Shown here: positions 29,590-47,413 of the stretch, piece by piece
Position numbering within the stretch: position 1 is the first letter of the stretch
Layout: each line of letters starts with the position of its first letter
Assembly: GCA_039193195.1 (NCBI GenBank)
Contig: JBCCWS010000027.1
Span: 1-64,000, forward strand
DNA from: Pseudomonadota bacterium
Lineage (GTDB): Bacteria; Pseudomonadota; Gammaproteobacteria; Steroidobacterales; JBCBZW01
Reading direction: 5' to 3'
Length of the DNA: 64,000 nt
Position numbers and translations under genes: made by a program
Notes under the pieces: model-generated
What the model was told of the DNA's origin: nothing
The model's database searches: none
Seen by the model: the letters and a program-made list of their open reading frames with translations, nothing else

Positions 29590-32500
29590 GTGCCCAACGA
29601 CCCTCAGGCATATCCATCTATCTTTGTCAGCTACCGAATCGCGGACACCTTGCCCACGGCCGATCGGCTAGCCCTCGAGCTGCAGCGGAGATTCGGTGCC
29701 AACGAAGTATTCTTCGATCGCCGAACGGTTGAGCCGGGCGATAGCTGGGATAGCCACATCGAGACCGCCGTCAAGAACGCATCGTTCGTGCTCGTCGTGA
29801 TTGGCAAGCGCTGGCTCACCGAGCAGGGCGAGTACGGGCAGCGACGCCTCGATATGCCCGGGGACTGGGTGCGGCGGGAGGTGGAAGAAGCGCTTGTGGG
29901 CCATGCTGAGGTCATTCCGGTACTCGTCGATGGCGTATCGCCACCACCGGCGGAGGCCTTCGGTAGCGTGCCAAGCATCGCTTCACTCGCCAAATGCCAG
30001 GGCGCCAGGCTGCGGGTTGCGGATTGGGACACGGACTTCGATGCGCTTGTTCGCAAATTGGCTTCCTCCGGGCTGGCAATGCCAAGCGAGTCGAGTGCCG
30101 AACGCGTAATCGTCCCGGGCCGAATTCCCATCAGTGCGAAGCAGTCATTTGTCGGGCGGGCAGATGAGCTCAACCAGCTAGCAGAACAGCTACCGACAAT
30201 CGGGGAGCCGGGCGTGGTTATCGTTCGGGGTATGCCGGGTGTGGGCAAGAGCGAACTGGCACTTGAGTACGCTCGACGTCATCAGTCGCACTACGCGAAC
30301 GGCGCCTTTCTTATCGGCATGGACCAAGGGACAGTGCCCGTCGATCTGGCCACCTATGGCGTCCGGAACCTTGGAATCCACTCGAATCGCCTAGCGATCG
30401 ACGAGCAATGCCTGTTGGTGTTGAGGCAGCTCGCAGCACCGACCCTGCTCATCTACGACAACGTGACCAGCCCGGATGCAATCTCACCATGGTTGCCGGC
30501 TAACGATGAGGCGACGCACGTACTGATCACGAGCACTTGGGAAGACTGGCGGGGTTGGCGTGCGGTTGAGGTGCCCCCTCTAAGCGAGGATGACGCACGC
30601 GACCTGGTAGGGGCGCTAGGCGGCCCTGAGGTTGAGGGAAGTTACGGGCCTGCGCTCGTAGCGAGCGCGGCGGGCCTGCCGGTGCAGCTCTGCCCGGCGA
30701 CCCGCAGGGTCGCCAAATCAATGGAACGGCTCGGCAATGCGGCGATTGCGATCGAGGCGGAGGCAACGAGCAGCTTCTCGGCGGTCTGGGATTTACTCGA
30801 TGATGAGGGCCGACTGCTATTGAGCGCCGCTACGTTCTTCAACCCTGACCGCATCCGCGCCGACCTATTGCGGTCGCGGTTGCAGGAGGCAGGTTGGACC
30901 TCTGCAAGCGTTGACCGTGCGCTCGATGCCTGTCTGGACTTGTCGCTCCTCCAGGCTGGCGAAGAGCTACGGATGCATCGGTTGTTTCAGGAGTTCGTGA
31001 GGTCGGCGCCAGGTGTGAACACCACGCAGCTCGCGCACTTCCACGATACGCACTCGGCGGCGTTCATGATTGCGGCGGAGGACGTAAGAGCAAACCCCGC
31101 GAGTAGCAGTTCGGCTTCCAATCTCCACTGCTATTCACTGTCGCCGGACAGTTGGCAACCTGGGGATGGTTCGTTGGCGTCGAGAGTTGACGCGTACTCG
31201 ATTGGCGCCGCCCTTGTTGAGATCGGCCTTTTCAACTTGGGGCGGCTCTGGTTCGAGTCCGCCCTTGAGCAAGCAGAGAAGGGTAACGTCCATGGACGCG
31301 TCGACCACCAAGCCCTGGGATCCAGCCTGCATCAGATCGGGTATTGCCTACTCCAAACAGGTGATTACGAAGGTGCGCGTCCTTCCTTCGAGCGCGCCGT
31401 CAAGGAGTCCGAACAAGGCGACGTTCAGGGGCGCGTCAACCACGAGCGCGTGGGACGGAGTCTGCATCAGGTTGGCTACTGCCTTTCCCGAACAGGCAAC
31501 TACGAAGGAGCTCAGACCTGGCTCAAGCGCGCTGTCGAGGAGAAGGAGCAAGGCGACGTCTATGGGCAAGTTAACCACGAGAGCCTCGGAAGAAGCCTCC
31601 ATCTGATCGGTCACTGCTTCTCACAAGATGGCGACTACCAAGAAGCACAAGTCTGGCTCAAGCGCGCCGTCGAGCAGAAAGAGCAAGGCGGCGACCGAGG
31701 ACGCATTGATCACGAGAGCTTGGGCCAGAGCCTACATCTGGTCGGTTACTGCCTCTCCCAAACGGGCGATCACGTGGGTGCGAGACGCTGGCTAGAGGAC
31801 GCGGTAAGGCAGAAGGAGCAGGGAGATGTCCATGCACGCGTTAACCACGAGAGTTTAGGAACGAGCCTGCATTTGGTCGGTCTCTGTCTCTCCGAAACGG
31901 GTAACTACGAAGCTGCAAAGGCCTGGTTCGAGCGCGCTGTCCAGCAAGCGGAGCCAGGCGATATTCATGGACGCGTTGACCATGAGAGCTTGGGATCGAG
32001 CCTGCATCAGGTCGGCTATTGCCTCTTCCAGGCCGGAGACTATGAACGTGCCAGACCTTGGTTCGAGCGTGCCGTCGAACAGGCACAAAGAGGCGATGTA
32101 CACGGGCGCATTGACCACGAGAGCTTAGGATCGAGCCTGCATCAGGTCGGGTATTGCCTCGCCGAAACCGGCGACTACACAGCTGCTCAACCTTGGCTGA
32201 AGCAAGCTGTCGAGGAAAAGGAGACAGGCGACGTCTACGGGCGCGTTGATCACGAAAGCCTAGGGAAGAGCCTACACCAAGTCGGATACTGCTTGTCTCA
32301 AGCGGGTGACTACGAAGGTGCTAAGCCGTGGCTGGAGCGCGCCGCCGAGCGGAAGGAGCACGGCGACGTTCATGGGCGCGTCGACTACGACAGCTTAGGG
32401 TCGAGCTTGCACCAGGTCGGCTATTGCCTCTGCGAAGCCGGCGACTTCGAAGCTGCCAAACCCTGGCTCCAACGCGCCGTAGAGCAGAAGGGCCGGGGCG

Positions 32501-32718
32501 ATGTGCACGGATCCGTCGACCACGAGAGCTTGGGCAAGACGCTCCATCAGGTCGGGTATTGCCTCTCCCGAACAGGTGATCACGAAGGCGCTCGACCTTG
32601 GCTCGAGCGCGCGATCGAGGAAAAGGAGCAAGGCGACGCCCACGGACGGGTGGATCACGCTAGTGTCGAGCTGACTAGACAGGCACTTCACGCGCTTGCT
32701 GGTTCGTCAGCGCGTTAA
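29590..32718 (+). CDS. TIR-NB-ARC-TPR protein (prokaryotic NLR, probable phage-defence sensor)
   Basis: This 1042-residue STAND protein has three parts. Residues 9-150 form a TIR domain (SIFVSYRIADT, FDRRTVEPGDSW) with the likely NADase catalytic Glu58 in HIETAV. Residues 190-480 form an NB-ARC-like ATPase: Walker A GMPGVGKSE (214-222), Walker B TLLIYDNV (about 285), GLPVQL, and an MHD-like MHR at 462-464. Residues 565-1042 carry ten TPR-like repeats of 45 residues and a partial eleventh. Related bacterial NLRs sense phage proteins and trigger NAD depletion; that role here is inference. It starts at GTG behind GGAGGAG and stands alone. Confidence 0.9.
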   Translation: MPNDPQAYPSIFVSYRIADTLPTADRLALELQRRFGANEVFFDRRTVEPGDSWDSHIETAVKNASFVLVVIGKRWLTEQGEYGQRRLDMPGDWVRREVEEALVGHAEVIPVLVDGVSPPPAEAFGSVPSIASLAKCQGARLRVADWDTDFDALVRKLASSGLAMPSESSAERVIVPGRIPISAKQSFVGRADELNQLAEQLPTIGEPGVVIVRGMPGVGKSELALEYARRHQSHYANGAFLIGMDQGTVPVDLATYGVRNLGIHSNRLAIDEQCLLVLRQLAAPTLLIYDNVTSPDAISPWLPANDEATHVLITSTWEDWRGWRAVEVPPLSEDDARDLVGALGGPEVEGSYGPALVASAAGLPVQLCPATRRVAKSMERLGNAAIAIEAEATSSFSAVWDLLDDEGRLLLSAATFFNPDRIRADLLRSRLQEAGWTSASVDRALDACLDLSLLQAGEELRMHRLFQEFVRSAPGVNTTQLAHFHDTHSAAFMIAAEDVRANPASSSSASNLHCYSLSPDSWQPGDGSLASRVDAYSIGAALVEIGLFNLGRLWFESALEQAEKGNVHGRVDHQALGSSLHQIGYCLLQTGDYEGARPSFERAVKESEQGDVQGRVNHERVGRSLHQVGYCLSRTGNYEGAQTWLKRAVEEKEQGDVYGQVNHESLGRSLHLIGHCFSQDGDYQEAQVWLKRAVEQKEQGGDRGRIDHESLGQSLHLVGYCLSQTGDHVGARRWLEDAVRQKEQGDVHARVNHESLGTSLHLVGLCLSETGNYEAAKAWFERAVQQAEPGDIHGRVDHESLGSSLHQVGYCLFQAGDYERARPWFERAVEQAQRGDVHGRIDHESLGSSLHQVGYCLAETGDYTAAQPWLKQAVEEKETGDVYGRVDHESLGKSLHQVGYCLSQAGDYEGAKPWLERAAERKEHGDVHGRVDYDSLGSSLHQVGYCLCEAGDFEAAKPWLQRAVEQKGRGDVHGSVDHESLGKTLHQVGYCLSRTGDHEGARPWLERAIEEKEQGDAHGRVDHASVELTRQALHALAGSSAR
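31282..32715 (+). repeat. In-frame tandem array, 135-bp unit, ten full copies plus partial
   Basis: Each 135-bp unit encodes GDVHGRVDHESLGSSLHQV, GYCLSQTGDYEGAKPWLERA and a short charged link. Exactly 1350 bp hold ten units, and a partial unit ends the gene. The core LGxSLHQVGYCL is almost unchanged across units. Variation concentrates in the link and in a few positions of the second helix. This implies recent duplication or gene conversion. Confidence 0.92.
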
Positions 32719-37467: not shown

Positions 37468-38511
37468 ATGGAAACCACGCAATCTCAAGTTCCTAGTTCA
37501 GCGTCGACCAGTGCGCGACTGGTAGAAATCTTCATCTCTTATCGGCGCAGCGACGGCGACTGGCACGCTGAGTGGCTACATAGACACCTAGAGGGGCTGG
37601 AGTATGTCGACAATAGCGGCCAACCATGCATCCTCAAAACTTATTACGACAAGACGGCCGCCGGCGTAGATGACTGGAAACTGCAGAATCTCGGGGCACT
37701 AAGAACAGCGAGAGCAATGCTCCTCGTCTGTACACCAGGAATAGCCCAGGATCTTTCCAAGCGCAAGAAGGGATCTGATTCGCTTTACGCGGAGCTCAAG
37801 TGGTGGGTGCGTCAGCGAGGAGTAGCTCCGATCGTCGTGGATCCGAAGGGGGATGGCCATCTCTGGCTTCCGAAGCTATTGACTGTCAAATGGCCTCACA
37901 TCAATCGGATTCACCTTTCGAGCAATGAAGCTGAATCTGCTGATCCCGAGTACCAGTTGCGACTTATTGATAGGATCGTGGGCGCCATCCGTGAATTGGA
38001 ACAGCAGACGCTCGCTGAAGATCTGGCGCAGTCTCTGCGGCAGGAGAGGCGCTTGAGGTGGGCGCTGACTGCCGCGTCCATTCTCCTCTCGGTCTCGATC
38101 ATTTTGGGTCTTTACGCCAACGAAAGGAGGCGGGAGTCGAATGAAAAGACACGTCTTGCCGAAGAATCATTGACAGTAGCGGCTGGATTTCTGATGCGAC
38201 TGCTCCAGTACGGCAGGCCCGGGCAAACGACATCACTGGAACTCATCAAGTTGATTACTGAAGTGCGTGATAGAGCAGATGAAACACAGTTTGTCACCGT
38301 CGCGCTGCAGGTGCTGAGTTGTTGGGGACTAGCCTCCATACAAAGCCAACTCGTTCACGACGCGATGGTAGACATGTATGCCGCGATTGAGTCCAGCGCA
38401 TCTGGCCGTGAGCCTGAAGTTCAATCGCGCATCGCGACACTGAAAGCTAACACTGCGGCGGCACGCAGCGGGAGTGAAGCGCCCCACCCTTGCATGGCTC
38501 CGACGAGCTGA
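37468..38511 (+). CDS. TIR-domain protein with a C-terminal membrane helix; catalytic Glu absent
   Basis: This 347-residue protein starts with a TIR domain of the prokaryotic TIR_2 type (EIFISYRRSDGDWHAEWLHR, then YYDKTAAGVDDWKLQNLGAL). The position of the NADase glutamate, judged by alignment with the TIR-NLR above, is Leu in WKLQNLGAL, so the domain may be inactive. A membrane helix lies near residues 199-217 (TAASILLSVSIILGLYA). The rest is helical and may be truncated: the last 20 residues are low in order, and related proteins are usually longer. It has no operon partner. It may be a scaffold or a decayed effector. Confidence 0.8.
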   Translation: METTQSQVPSSASTSARLVEIFISYRRSDGDWHAEWLHRHLEGLEYVDNSGQPCILKTYYDKTAAGVDDWKLQNLGALRTARAMLLVCTPGIAQDLSKRKKGSDSLYAELKWWVRQRGVAPIVVDPKGDGHLWLPKLLTVKWPHINRIHLSSNEAESADPEYQLRLIDRIVGAIRELEQQTLAEDLAQSLRQERRLRWALTAASILLSVSIILGLYANERRRESNEKTRLAEESLTVAAGFLMRLLQYGRPGQTTSLELIKLITEVRDRADETQFVTVALQVLSCWGLASIQSQLVHDAMVDMYAAIESSASGREPEVQSRIATLKANTAAARSGSEAPHPCMAPTS

Positions 38512-40047: not shown

Positions 40048-41844
40048 TCATTCGCGTCGCAGGTCGCTGAGTGGGCTCAACTTGGGCAGGTACCCTGTCT
40101 TCAGCACGTGACTCTCCTTCGCCTCGATCTTGCGATCACCGAAGGTGTCGAGCCAGCGACCCAGCGTGTCTGATAGCTTCGAGGCAGTGGAGTCGTCACC
40201 CGCACTGACACCGCCTTCCTCGTCGAGGTAGATGCGCTCTCCGGTGTGCCGGTACCCCAAGAGCCTCGGCACGATCAAGGGCACGATGTCCCCCTGGTTC
40301 ACGACGCGGAACGATGGAATTTGTGTGGTCCTGGCATCGAAGGCCTGCTGGAAGCGTCGGTTACCCACGCGGGGGGCACCGAAGGTATAGAGGCCAGCGA
40401 GAGGGATCTTGTCTTCCAGGAGCATACCCGCCAGCAACACGGCGAGCGCCCCTCCTAGGCTGTGTCCTGTGACCCATAGCCTACGACCTGCCTGCAGGTG
40501 TTCATGCAGGAGGCGGCTGACCTGCAGCATCACCGGAAATAGGGCATCCTGGAATCCCTCGTGCACCCGCGCCTCGGGGTCCAGTGGACCGGGGTCGGTC
40601 ACGATCTGCGCGTTGCCCAACCAATCGGGGAGCGACTCACTTCCGCAGAAGCTGACGATCACCGTCGACTCGTTGTGGACCAGAAAACCCTCCGTATCGA
40701 TGTCACGACCGAGGCGCTTGGAGAACGCGTGGACCTCAGCGTGCTCCCAACCGGGGCAGGCGCGAATGGTGGCCTGGCGCGCCTGGTCGTCGGGCTCGTA
40801 GGCGAGCTGGCATAGGGCGGCCAGAAAGTAGGCATCGTGTGGGTCGTAGCGAGGGTCGCCAGACAGGCTTGGCTTTACGTGCTGCGTGAAGTGCTCCTCA
40901 AGCTGGCGCTGGAGCGCGCGGGAGGTTCTGGCCTCGAAGCGAGTGATCGCCTCCAGCATCTGCGGGAACAGCGGGTTAGCTTCTTCGAGGGTCTCCTTCG
41001 GATCGTTCGGATTCACTACAGCTTGGCTCAGCACCAGGCTTGCGTGAGAGACATCGTCCTGCTCTTCGATGCGCAAGAACGTGAAGCGCTCTGCGGGGGT
41101 AACGCGCTGCAAGCGCTCTATGCCGCGGATGTCCGCCGTGAGATCGGCCTGCGAATGGGCGGCAAAAACGCGCTTGGGAAAACGTCGTCCGCGACCGCGA
41201 AGGTGCTTTAGCGCTGCGTCGTTCTCCTGCATAAGCCGTGACAGCTGCTCCGCAGCGTCCAAATCGACGTGCGTGTAGCGGAAGGGATTGGCACCAATGA
41301 GGGGCTTGTCCTTCTTCAGCAAGTCCGCGAGCCCCATTCTCGGCAAGCGCTCCTTAAGCTCCCCGATGATCCCCAAGGGGCCTCCCGCAAGATCCAGCGC
41401 GGCAGAGAAGAGGTACAGATCCCCGGTGATTCGGGCGTCCTTGACCGCCGCCGAGAACGCCAGTGCTCCCCCCGTGGAGAGCCCTCCGATGGACACCTTG
41501 TGCGGGGCGCGCACAGCGGCTTGTTGGACCGCGTAGTCGACGTTCGTCCGCCACTCCACCAGCGAGATCCCGTTCATCCCTTGGGGCTGCTTCAAGCCGT
41601 GGAAGTGCAGCAGCGGTAGGAACACGTCGTAGTTGAGCGCCGTATGAAAGTGCTCAGCGATCGCGGTCATGAAGTGCGGCGAGTCGGAAAGACCGTGCAC
41701 GAGCACAATCGCCTCGCCCGTCGGCTCGTCATGCAGATAGCGTCTAGGGTGGCAGCCATCACGGACCGCGTTGGGCTGGAAATACTCTGAGAATTTGCCG
41801 TAGTACTCCATCCACTCGTGGTCGCGGGCTTGATGCGCGCTCAT
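40048..41844 (-). CDS. Two-domain hydrolase: alpha/beta hydrolase fused to class 3 lipase
   Basis: This 598-residue protein contains two separate alpha/beta hydrolases. The first (residues 1-270) has IVLVHGLSDSPHFM and the nucleophile motif GGLSTGGALAFS, like serine aminopeptidase or monoglyceride lipase. The second (about 340-570) is a class 3 lipase: STVIVSFCGSES, WVTGHSLGGALAVLLAG and NQGDIVPLIVP. No signal peptide is visible, so it should act in the cytoplasm or at the membrane. Fusion of these two classes is unusual. AGGAGGAG precedes the ATG. Substrates are unknown; phospholipids or acylglycerols are inference. Confidence 0.85.
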   Translation of the reverse strand: MSAHQARDHEWMEYYGKFSEYFQPNAVRDGCHPRRYLHDEPTGEAIVLVHGLSDSPHFMTAIAEHFHTALNYDVFLPLLHFHGLKQPQGMNGISLVEWRTNVDYAVQQAAVRAPHKVSIGGLSTGGALAFSAAVKDARITGDLYLFSAALDLAGGPLGIIGELKERLPRMGLADLLKKDKPLIGANPFRYTHVDLDAAEQLSRLMQENDAALKHLRGRGRRFPKRVFAAHSQADLTADIRGIERLQRVTPAERFTFLRIEEQDDVSHASLVLSQAVVNPNDPKETLEEANPLFPQMLEAITRFEARTSRALQRQLEEHFTQHVKPSLSGDPRYDPHDAYFLAALCQLAYEPDDQARQATIRACPGWEHAEVHAFSKRLGRDIDTEGFLVHNESTVIVSFCGSESLPDWLGNAQIVTDPGPLDPEARVHEGFQDALFPVMLQVSRLLHEHLQAGRRLWVTGHSLGGALAVLLAGMLLEDKIPLAGLYTFGAPRVGNRRFQQAFDARTTQIPSFRVVNQGDIVPLIVPRLLGYRHTGERIYLDEEGGVSAGDDSTASKLSDTLGRWLDTFGDRKIEAKESHVLKTGYLPKLSPLSDLRRE

Positions 41845-44828: not shown

Positions 44829-46472
44829 TCAGGACAGCGACGAAGTACCAAGTGCTTCCACGATCGCATCAATGACGATCCCCTCGTTCGCAGGATACGT
44901 CCCCTCCTGCCCGTTTAGCTTCGGCATCTTTTTCAGGCCTCGGTGATGCAAGGCAATCAGCTCCCAACGCGCGTTGAACACCGGGCTGCCGGAGCTGCCC
45001 GGTTCAGTCGGCGAGCGGTAGTGCATCAGGCGCTCGTCGTAGTCAAGAAGGTGGTTGTCATGGATGGAGAACGACAGCTTGCGGCCGTTTGGATGACCGA
45101 TGACGTAAGCGCGTTGCTTGCCATCCCTGGCAGGTAGAGTGCCTGCCACCGGAACCGGCTCGATGCCCGCCAGATCAACCCTCGGTCGCAGCACCGTTGC
45201 ATCCAGTTTGTCCGGCCTTGATGTCCATAGCTCTTCAACCTCAAAGGCCTGTGGACCGCCTTTCCAAAGTTCAAACGTGACCCTGGCGTGCTGCGGTCGG
45301 ATCGCACTGCTGACGGTAGTGTCGCTACAAACCACGTGCGCGTTGGTCAGGATCAGGAGTTCATCACCCCAAGCCTCGTATAGGTCACCACCGCGAACTA
45401 GAAAGCCGGTACCGATCGCTTCGTCGAAATCAGTCAGAATCTGGGCGACGGATCGGGCCCGAGTCATGCATCTGTTGAACCACGAGAACGTCTGAAAGCC
45501 ATCGCTTCCGAAGCGCCTCTCGAAGCCTTCACCAAGTTTGAGAACACCGCTTCCCTCGTGGCTGGCTTCGTCCACGGGGATCTCGATGTCGCCCCCCTTC
45601 CGTTCGAGCAGGGCAGCCTTGAGCGCCGGAAGTACCTTGGCGCCGAGCGGTTCGCTGGTCTTCAGTTGCCAAACCTGGGTCAGTTGACGATAGCTGCTGC
45701 CCAGCTCGAAATCATCCGTGTTCCTATCGCCAATGTAGGAGCCAAGCCACTCGAGCGATTCTTCATCCTTCGCTAGGGCGATGCAGGCTTCTAAGCCCGT
45801 CGCGTGATCCCACCGCGTCGCCGTGTCCATCTGCAGCCGGTTGGTCATCTCCGCGAGGACTTGGCTGGCCATTGACTGGGCCACCCGCTTGGGGTCCGCA
45901 ATTCCCCTCACGTCGACTCCGTCGCGATCGGCCCTCTGCAGCAGGGCCACCGCGTTGATGCCGTGCCAAGCCATTTCGCTGTTCACATCGTAGACCTGCT
46001 TGTAGTAGCCAATTGCGCTATCCAGATAGGCACGGTGTCGGCTTCGCTGGGGGTTGGCTGCGTTGATGTACAGGTCCTTGTAGCTCCTGCCTAGCAGGCC
46101 CAGGGCCTCTGCGTGCTCCCCAGGGTCAGCACACGCTCCGCCTACGTCGCTATCGTGCTTTAGGCGCTCGAGCACGCAGATAGCGCTGGTCAGTCGTCCC
46201 TGATCGATGAGTGCCTGAGCGTACAGGCGGCGCACCTTGGGCCCGCGCTGACCGTTCTGGATCAGCGCATCGGCAACGCGCTCCATCAGGACGAAGTAGC
46301 GACGGCGCCTGAGCAAGCCGAGTGCCTTCGCCGCTTCCTGAACCGGGTAGGCATCATCGCGCTCAATGATGTGGTCGATCAGCTCGTTCGACAGTTCCTC
46401 CGCTTTGCTCTGGTCGAAGGTGCTGACCGCGTCGAAGAGCGCATCGTTGAACTCCCGGATCCGAAACGTCAT
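44829..46472 (-). CDS. TPR-like protein with C-terminal trypsin-like serine protease domain
   Basis: This 547-residue protein has two halves. The N-terminal 300 residues are helical repeats resembling the TRAFs-binding/TPR region of MAP3K-like proteins (RRLYAQALIDQGRLTSAICVL, LGRSYKDLYINAANPQR). The C-terminal 200 residues form a trypsin-like protease with His in LTNAHVVC (about residue 380), Asp in PDKLDATVLR and Ser in EPGSSGSPVF (about 490). Its ATG overlaps the stop of the upstream hydrolase gene (ATGA), so the two are translationally coupled. Trypsin domains coupled to TPR modules occur in bacterial conflict systems; a defence role here is inference. Confidence 0.87.
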   Translation of the reverse strand: MTFRIREFNDALFDAVSTFDQSKAEELSNELIDHIIERDDAYPVQEAAKALGLLRRRRYFVLMERVADALIQNGQRGPKVRRLYAQALIDQGRLTSAICVLERLKHDSDVGGACADPGEHAEALGLLGRSYKDLYINAANPQRSRHRAYLDSAIGYYKQVYDVNSEMAWHGINAVALLQRADRDGVDVRGIADPKRVAQSMASQVLAEMTNRLQMDTATRWDHATGLEACIALAKDEESLEWLGSYIGDRNTDDFELGSSYRQLTQVWQLKTSEPLGAKVLPALKAALLERKGGDIEIPVDEASHEGSGVLKLGEGFERRFGSDGFQTFSWFNRCMTRARSVAQILTDFDEAIGTGFLVRGGDLYEAWGDELLILTNAHVVCSDTTVSSAIRPQHARVTFELWKGGPQAFEVEELWTSRPDKLDATVLRPRVDLAGIEPVPVAGTLPARDGKQRAYVIGHPNGRKLSFSIHDNHLLDYDERLMHYRSPTEPGSSGSPVFNARWELIALHHRGLKKMPKLNGQEGTYPANEGIVIDAIVEALGTSSLS

Positions 46473-47413
46473 GGCCAAATCACGCCGAGCAGACGTGCCA
46501 TGTGTTCGCGCAGCTCGTCCTGCAACATATACTTGTGCAGATCGTGCCGCCATTTTCCGCCGTTGCGCTGGCGCTGGTCGATCACCACGCTCTGGCCATT
46601 GCGTCGATAGTCATTGGCGAGACGGGTGTCGATGCACACCGGATCGAGGCGATCGGCGACGTTCACCCATTCGCCCGCCACCTTGCTCGGGAACCCGTCA
46701 TTGCGCGTCCACTCCGGCGACAGCTTGTCCTGAATTTCATCGATGCCGAGCGGCGAACCGAGGGTCATGAAGCCGTCGACGGCGGGACACGCCGCCACAC
46801 GCTTTAGGCAGTCGTACGCAATCACCGTGCCCATGCTGTGACCCACAACGATGTGCGGGCCGTTTCCACCGTTGGCATCGGCGTCCTGCGCAAGGGTCTC
46901 GACGAAGCGCCGACGGATCTCGTCTTGCACCCGGTACGTCTCACCAGGCCTCGGCGTGCTTTGCGCGTTGAACAAGTAGTGATGCACGTCCCTGAGCAGT
47001 GCCTTCATCAGCCGCCGCTTGATCGCCCACGGCAAGGGTATGCGCTCAAACCCAGATTCGTCTGAAGGCGGTGGCACGTAGGCATCATCGCCGTCGGGCG
47101 CTTCAGCCTCGTAGTTCAGTCGCGCTGCCAACGCCGTTATGAAGTCTTGGTTCTCGGCGGGCATCTCAGCATGCCAACTGCTGTCATCATCGGACGGCTC
47201 ATCGACGATGTCATCACCGACACGCTCGTGGTCCGAGTCGTCACTCGACGGGGACGCGTACATGACGTCCGCCCAGTAGACGAACGAAGAGGAGATGTTG
47301 TGCGTTCCAAGGTCGATGCCGTCTGCATCAGCCAGCGCCCGACGCCAGCGCTCGTGCAGTTCGTCAGCCGGTGGCTTGTTGGCGATACCGTGAATAAAGG
47401 TGATGTGTGTCAT
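46469..47413 (-). CDS. Alpha/beta hydrolase, first gene of a coupled pair
   Basis: This 314-residue protein has the start of an alpha/beta hydrolase (MTHITFIHGIANKPPADEL). The nucleophile is in HIVVGHSMGTVIAYDCL, and MTLGSPLGI follows the strand. An acidic insert (about residues 60-90, many Asp/Ser) lies between the first strands. The His is probably near the C-terminus (WRHDLHKYM). No signal peptide is visible. GAGG precedes the ATG, and its stop overlaps the protease gene start. The substrate is unknown; a membrane-lipid or acyl target is inference. Confidence 0.82.
   Translation of the reverse strand: MTHITFIHGIANKPPADELHERWRRALADADGIDLGTHNISSSFVYWADVMYASPSSDDSDHERVGDDIVDEPSDDDSSWHAEMPAENQDFITALAARLNYEAEAPDGDDAYVPPPSDESGFERIPLPWAIKRRLMKALLRDVHHYLFNAQSTPRPGETYRVQDEIRRRFVETLAQDADANGGNGPHIVVGHSMGTVIAYDCLKRVAACPAVDGFMTLGSPLGIDEIQDKLSPEWTRNDGFPSKVAGEWVNVADRLDPVCIDTRLANDYRRNGQSVVIDQRQRNGGKWRHDLHKYMLQDELREHMARLLGVIWP

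Follow-up and report, generated by a model that had tools for sequence, protein, structure and literature searches.

The stretch of DNA analysed here (the window) comprises 64,000 nucleotides, positions 1 to 64,000 of contig JBCCWS010000027.1 of the Pseudomonadota assembly GCA_039193195.1, and carries on its minus strand two overlapping genes that are the subject of this analysis. The upstream gene (46469..47413, -) encodes a 314-residue alpha/beta hydrolase of the Abhydrolase_6 family, predicted to be a lipase/esterase-like pro-effector, and the downstream gene (44829..46472, -) encodes a 547-residue protease with a TPR-S and a Trypsin_2 domain. The TGA stop codon of the hydrolase and the ATG start codon of the protease share a 4-base ATGA (46469..46472, -); the longest open reading frame of the protease gene begins at 46553, and the conserved start, MTFRIREF, is at 46472. 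An original prediction for this locus had described a hydrolase with an acidic insert, overlapping by four bases a protein with TPR-like repeats and a complete trypsin triad, and each of these features was borne out.

The hydrolase and the protease

The match of the hydrolase to Abhydrolase_6 was found in Pfam (E 1.3e-7). Its nucleophile, S193, lies in a GHSMG elbow (codon 46835..46837, -) and forms a triad with D257 (or D254) and H290; S193, D254, D257 and H290 were invariant in 33 homologues. The protein combines a GxSxG elbow with an Asp/His triad in an alpha/beta fold, the features that place an enzyme in the lipase/esterase class. Its structure model had a predicted template modelling score (pTM) of 0.89, and the best match in the PDB was the lipase 2zyh (E 6e-4). 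A hypervariable acidic insert of residues ~55-122 (47048..47251, -) lies between the strand 40-45 and the helix 129-147. No close solved relative of the hydrolase was found, and a lipid or ester is its predicted substrate. No gasdermin fold was found for the hydrolase by Pfam, structure modelling or fold search, and no NCBIfam model matched either protein of the pair.

In the protease, the TPR-S sensor domain PF20308 covers residues 68-178 (45939..46271, -) with an E value of 3.4e-17 and 63.3 bits, against a curated cut-off of 27.6. The TPR-S family is predicted to bind a nucleotide signal derived from nicotinamide adenine dinucleotide (NAD). A trypsin-like domain of the V8/Spl type follows at residues 354-508 (44949..45413, -; Trypsin_2 PF13365, E 9.4e-23). 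The triad H379-D424-S494 was identical in 28/28 aligned homologues and was kept in 10 further ones. In the S1 pocket, T489 (Ser-5) was present in 37 of 38 sequences, with Ser in the remaining one, and H509 (Ser+15; codon 44946-44948, -, just past the Pfam match) was present in all 38. The protease resembles V8/Spl/Esp-type enzymes in sequence and fold, and printed alignments showed that both pocket positions are common to SplB and absent from SplA. SplB accepts acid or amide P1 residues, and SplA has another specificity; we take T489 and H509 to be positions of the acid/amide P1 pocket of V8 as well. Because the Thr/His pocket coincides with that of SplB and, presumably, of V8, the protease is predicted to be a Glu-cutting enzyme of the V8 type. 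The TPR and protease domains are joined by a disordered linker of residues 304-325 (45498..45563, -), the only segment of the protease with a predicted local distance difference test (pLDDT) value below 50. It holds E318 in the motif [LFY]-E-[KAR]-[VI], which is a candidate self-cut site.

When the pair was compared with PADLOC, no full system model was matched; the trypsin domain alone weakly matched RT-Protease_XI (E 4.7e-6), and the hydrolase had no match. The RT-Protease_XI identity was dropped because the match covered the trypsin domain only. No Pfam, NCBIfam or PADLOC family covers the hydrolase-protease pair.

Candidate cleavage sites

In the hydrolase model, pLDDT fell below 50 in exactly two segments, residues 59-68 and 121-123, each of which contains one near-invariant Glu amid hypervariable sequence. 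These residues are E63 (codon 47225..47227, -), the putative first cut site and the most isolated conserved residue in the whole hydrolase, and E123 (codon 47045..47047, -), the putative second cut site, which stands where the hypervariable insert ends and belongs to the motif [LFY]-E-[RA]-[IV]-P. Since Glu occupies just 3 of the 67 near-invariant positions of the hydrolase, the chance that both near-invariant positions in the disordered segments are Glu is ~0.0014 (3/2211), a figure calculated by hand for a question posed after the pattern was seen. Among hydrolases partnered by a TPR-S-trypsin, E63 was kept in 41/42 and E123 in 42/42. The pattern covers the homologues other than the distant, caspase-linked ones, whose insert is not reliably alignable.

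Trypsin- or caspase-activated pro-nucleases of the metallo-beta-lactamase (MBL) type have been described in Hachiman, AVAST, Lamassu, DRT and canu systems (Tuck et al. 2025, PMC12799240). The pro-nuclease HamM has two disordered insertions with one conserved residue each, and its active site opens when the trypsin partner cuts at these residues (PMC12799240). By sequence and structure model, the effector in the window shows a closely parallel pattern of two disordered segments with one conserved residue each, and the pair further resembles these systems in effector-protease co-evolution, association with different proteases and horizontal spread (see below). It differs from them in that the effector is an alpha/beta hydrolase rather than an MBL nuclease, the predicted P1 residue is Glu rather than Ile, and the protease is fused to TPR-S rather than tied to HamA, Avs or LmuA. 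Cleavage is known for the pro-nucleases, whereas for the hydrolase the parallel between the two-Glu pattern and the HamM insertions, together with the structure model, suggests where cuts may fall. The hypothesis of cleavage at two Glu residues originates in the present analysis.

Pairing, distribution and co-evolution

A homologue scan with one genome per species yielded 40 loci with close relatives of the hydrolase (41-63% identity) in Pseudomonadota, Acidobacteriota, Actinomycetota, Bacteroidota and Planctomycetota. The protease gene was directly downstream on the same strand in 34 of the 40 loci, in one of them as a fusion, and most pairs were spaced by -10 to +24 bases. The closest relative of the window pair, at locus L008, has the identical 4-base overlap, and in the tree the window pair is joined to that of an Acidobacterium with support of 100/100. 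Sequence distances among the hydrolases were correlated with those among their protease partners (Mantel r 0.78, 0/2000 permutations). Furthermore, among 398 genomes of the phylum and 395 genomes of a rhizobial family, two samples drawn without selection, a full-length close hydrolase and an adjacent full-length protease occurred in the same 5/5 genomes, our own included. Chance association of the two genes is excluded.

The full pair was present in 3 of the 398 genomes of the phylum sample, and a hydrolase profile matched in 3/146 relatives, one of these matches being a distant subtilisin fusion. A single further genome of the genus was searched, and it had no match to the hydrolase profile or to the lipoate ligase that flanks the pair in the window. 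The pair was also found on conjugative rhizobial plasmids. A search for conserved synteny with a metabolic pathway across genomes found none. The pair is rare and patchy and is not a housekeeping element; a conserved housekeeping context in many genomes, which the original prediction had named as the finding that would refute it, was looked for and not seen. The conserved pairing, correlated distances, patchy occurrence and plasmid carriage match what is expected of an accessory module spread by transfer. These results bear on the possibility that the hydrolase is a lipase/esterase of metabolism or under stress regulation, that the protease serves its quality control, and that the pair has no conflict role. 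The ordinary metabolic neighbours of the pair in the window would suit this explanation, which is nevertheless very unlikely in view of the rare and patchy distribution, the conjugative plasmids, and the enrichment of TIR genes and the presence of a homologue in a NucA-CHAT-S8-trypsin operon that are described below.

Hydrolases without an adjacent protease were found at L018 and L043 and as one copy at L024, where a complete pair is present as well, 6 kb away from the lone copy; conversely, a divergent TPR-S-trypsin occurs without the hydrolase in G300. The protease-less hydrolases of L018 and L043, as well as the overlapping genes and tight coupling, which suit toxin-antitoxin pairs equally well, could mean that the protease is a safety brake: the newly made hydrolase would already be active, and the TPR-S-trypsin would destroy it until a signal stops the protease. 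We consider such a brake quite unlikely: the lone hydrolases, including the L024 copy, would be lethal unless otherwise held, single conserved Glu residues in two variable, disordered segments suit specific processing better than degradation, and the published relatives of the design activate their effectors (PMC12799240).

Fusions and other protease partners

The L036 locus (L036:8001-12131) encodes a natural fusion, in which one chain of 1376 residues comprises the hydrolase, TPR-S, trypsin and a calcineurin-type phosphoesterase. At L037 (L037:5963-7678), a TIR-hydrolase fusion without a protease has Gln at the position of E123 and follows the remains of the N-terminal part of a hydrolase; its TIR domain was called from sequence and then by a hidden Markov model (HMM) built in this analysis, a match that is not independent because the HMM seed included the L037 sequence. 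Among more distant relatives of the hydrolase, the fusion partner is an S8 subtilisin at L051 and a trypsin at L058, while others lie beside a caspase (L060) or a CHAT gene (L095). Another distant homologue (L059; profile E 2e-21) directly precedes a VMAP-M2 gene. As these fusions and neighbours include subtilisin, trypsin, caspase and CHAT, the constant theme is this hydrolase lineage together with some protease.

In another explanation, the hydrolase is not a substrate of the protease: the two enzymes might work one after the other on some third molecule, or the protease might serve mainly as a scaffold. The fusion and the operon pairing, which show functional linkage and not cleavage, the phosphoesterase in the L036 chain and the recurrence of peptidoglycan hydrolases close to the pair would fit this explanation. 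We regard it as unlikely, since the homologues have kept the triad and the S1 pocket throughout, which indicates that protease catalysis matters, since both partners have matched Glu sites, and since relatives of the hydrolase pair with S8, another trypsin, caspase and CHAT.

Two types of published conflict system share parts of this arrangement. In the VMAP (vWA-MoxR) ternary systems, an alpha/beta hydrolase is encoded next to a caspase and the two are proposed to act jointly (Kaur et al. 2020, PMC7159879). The window pair is similar in that a hydrolase gene adjoins a peptidase gene, and in the position of the L059 homologue before VMAP-M2; it differs in that the peptidase is a TPR-S-trypsin and the hydrolase is <35% identical to the VMAP group. 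No VMAP, vWA or MoxR was present among the scanned window proteins. The second type is NucA-trypsin, system 3 of the same study (Kaur et al. 2020, PMC7159879). Its proteases have a domain related to that of the window protease; when the latter was compared by tblastn, many of the plasmid-borne matches carried the annotation DNA/RNA non-specific endonuclease, and the close hydrolase of L056 lies within a NucA-CHAT-S8-trypsin operon. The window pair departs from those systems in the TPR-S domain fused to its protease and in having a hydrolase in place of the NucA nuclease. Bacterial gasdermin-protease pairs offer a working analogy, with a protease beside a membrane-acting effector, although the effector here is an enzyme and lacks the gasdermin fold.

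TPR-S systems were reportedly described by Burroughs and Aravind in the Journal of Bacteriology in 2020. The pair resembles them in its PF20308 match above the cut-off, in the TIR-type genes close by, and in ASK-like TPR-S proteins at L030 and L031, and it may already be listed among the published TPR-S systems.

Among the distant hydrolases of Rhizobiaceae (L096-L102), several have a twin-arginine-like leader and an uncharacterised upstream partner with the motif DPTLGIYA[AS]YAY.

Genomic neighbourhood of the pair

TIR_2 was found in 11 of 103 neighbour proteins encoded within 5.5 kb of 18 loci, compared with at most 1 of 114 control proteins from the same genomes (the control count is 0 or 1, based on the top 25 families listed). 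With an HMM made from eight of these TIR domains, TIR was detected at 18/40 loci and at 0/18 control regions, a comparison in which the test loci were somewhat longer than the controls and contributed the eight seeds. These TIR genes give the pair a defence-like context. SLATT, ASK-like TPR-S proteins and peptidoglycan hydrolases of phage type also recur near the pair.

Two TPR-S proteins with a MAP3K TRAF-binding (ASK1-like) match adjoin the pair at L030:10825-12243 and L031:12745-13974. Peptidoglycan-degrading genes of unrelated kinds (M15 peptidase with peptidoglycan-binding domain, GH108, phage lysozyme-CHAP-LysM and Amidase_2) recur by the pair at L011, L030, L033, L039, L025, L029, L040, L105, L026, L032 and L042, in some loci directly upstream in the operon, and it is possible that they represent a third component directed against the cell wall. 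A family with no Pfam match recurs by the pair in Acidobacteriota and Bacteroidota (L008:6941-7957, L021:10684-11655, L028:10715-11686 and L042:5057-6034); at L008, the member of this family lies immediately before the hydrolase gene.

The peptidoglycan hydrolase neighbours, along with a weak fold match of the hydrolase to 4o5p (E 2e-3), which we take to be a type VI secretion system (T6SS) lipase of P. aeruginosa, would be compatible with a secreted antibacterial effector pair, e.g. a type VI lipase and its accessory protein. This is the least probable of the alternatives that we considered, and only a slim chance can be given to it. The hydrolase has no apparent signal peptide, its first strand beginning the chain directly in the model; VgrG, PAAR and Rhs were absent among the scanned window neighbour proteins; and the partner is not immunity-like. 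In addition, carriers include Acidimicrobiia (Actinomycetota), which are not known for T6SS, and the T6SS effector reading was rejected on account of the Actinomycetota carriers.

In the window itself, the neighbours of the pair are ordinary: PhzF, an AsnC regulator, lipase genes and a lipoate ligase. The statement of the original prediction that two TIR genes lie in the same region held only loosely. The first (window 29590-32718) encodes a 1042-residue, NLR-like TIR-ATPase-TPR protein, and the second (window 37468-38511) has a weak TIR match (PF13676, E 8.6e-5) whose 23.5 bits fall short of the cut-off of 28; they are 6-12 kb from the pair, with the PhzF, AsnC and lipase genes between, whereas the TIR genes of its relatives are true close neighbours. 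A protein encoded at window 40048-41844 has two alpha/beta-hydrolase regions, the second of which is a class 3 lipase. In the genome as a whole, the CHAT domain was matched eight times, with six of the matches in open frames of >1000 residues, and five TPR-S matches were found; the genome is rich in conflict-type genes.

Proposed mechanism

We lean towards the interpretation that the pair is a two-gene immune or programmed-death module whose hydrolase is a pro-enzyme opened by the protease, and consider it reasonably probable. The hydrolase would be made as a closed pro-enzyme, with the acidic, disordered segment acting as a putative lid that shuts the Ser-Asp-His active site. TPR-S would sense a signal, possibly an NAD-derived product of a neighbouring TIR-type enzyme, and this signal would release the V8-like protease domain, perhaps via a self-cut after E318. 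The released protease would then cut the hydrolase after E63 and E123, and the opened hydrolase would attack a cellular ester, most likely a membrane lipid, such that the infected cell is stopped or killed. In this mechanism, we infer the cut sites, the on-direction of the switch, the signal, the substrate, the phage trigger and the anti-phage function. The original prediction of a candidate conflict system with a protease-switched hydrolase gained support from the pairing, co-evolution, patchy and transferred distribution, fusions, exchange of proteases and TIR neighbours and, for the putative cleavage, from the agreement between the candidate cut-site pattern and the predicted specificity of the protease.

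Several observations weigh against this interpretation. The predicted preference for Glu at P1 stands on two pocket residues and homology, and E63 and E123 could be structural. Both Glu residues were kept in 41/42 partnered and 5/7 unpartnered hydrolases (p ~0.05), a weak link on which we do not rely. More distant trypsins, those of L056 and L058, retain the E318 motif as well, and because it is conserved in trypsins of other settings, E318 is possibly structural. No Pfam lipase family matched the hydrolase above its cut-off. Moreover, searches of phages and IMG/VR found no relatives of the pair, hence no phage-borne copies or signs of carriage as cargo, and no PADLOC model fitted, so that the case for a defence role is indirect, and in the window the pair is flanked by PhzF and lipoate-ligase genes, with the TIR genes distant.

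A broader claim, which we put forward tentatively and would sooner bet against, is that immune effectors gated by proteases include a new class, represented by the pair: a lipase-like pro-enzyme whose lid is cut at two conserved Glu residues by a V8-type protease, which is itself switched on when TPR-S reads TIR-made nucleotide signals. Two genes would then unite NAD signalling, proteolysis and membrane attack, and evolution would have re-wired the hydrolase lineage to activators of the subtilisin, caspase, CHAT and further trypsin kinds. In a published bacterial immune system, the enzyme unlocked in a similar way cuts DNA, and the pair, if it works as proposed, would extend this strategy to a new type of weapon. 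One hallmark of the systems of Tuck et al. is now found in a non-nuclease class of enzyme, and the sequence pattern suits a second. If the proposal is true, TIR/TPR-S signalling would be joined to proteolysis and a lipase-like effector, and protease gating would have arisen, or been re-wired, repeatedly around one hydrolase family.
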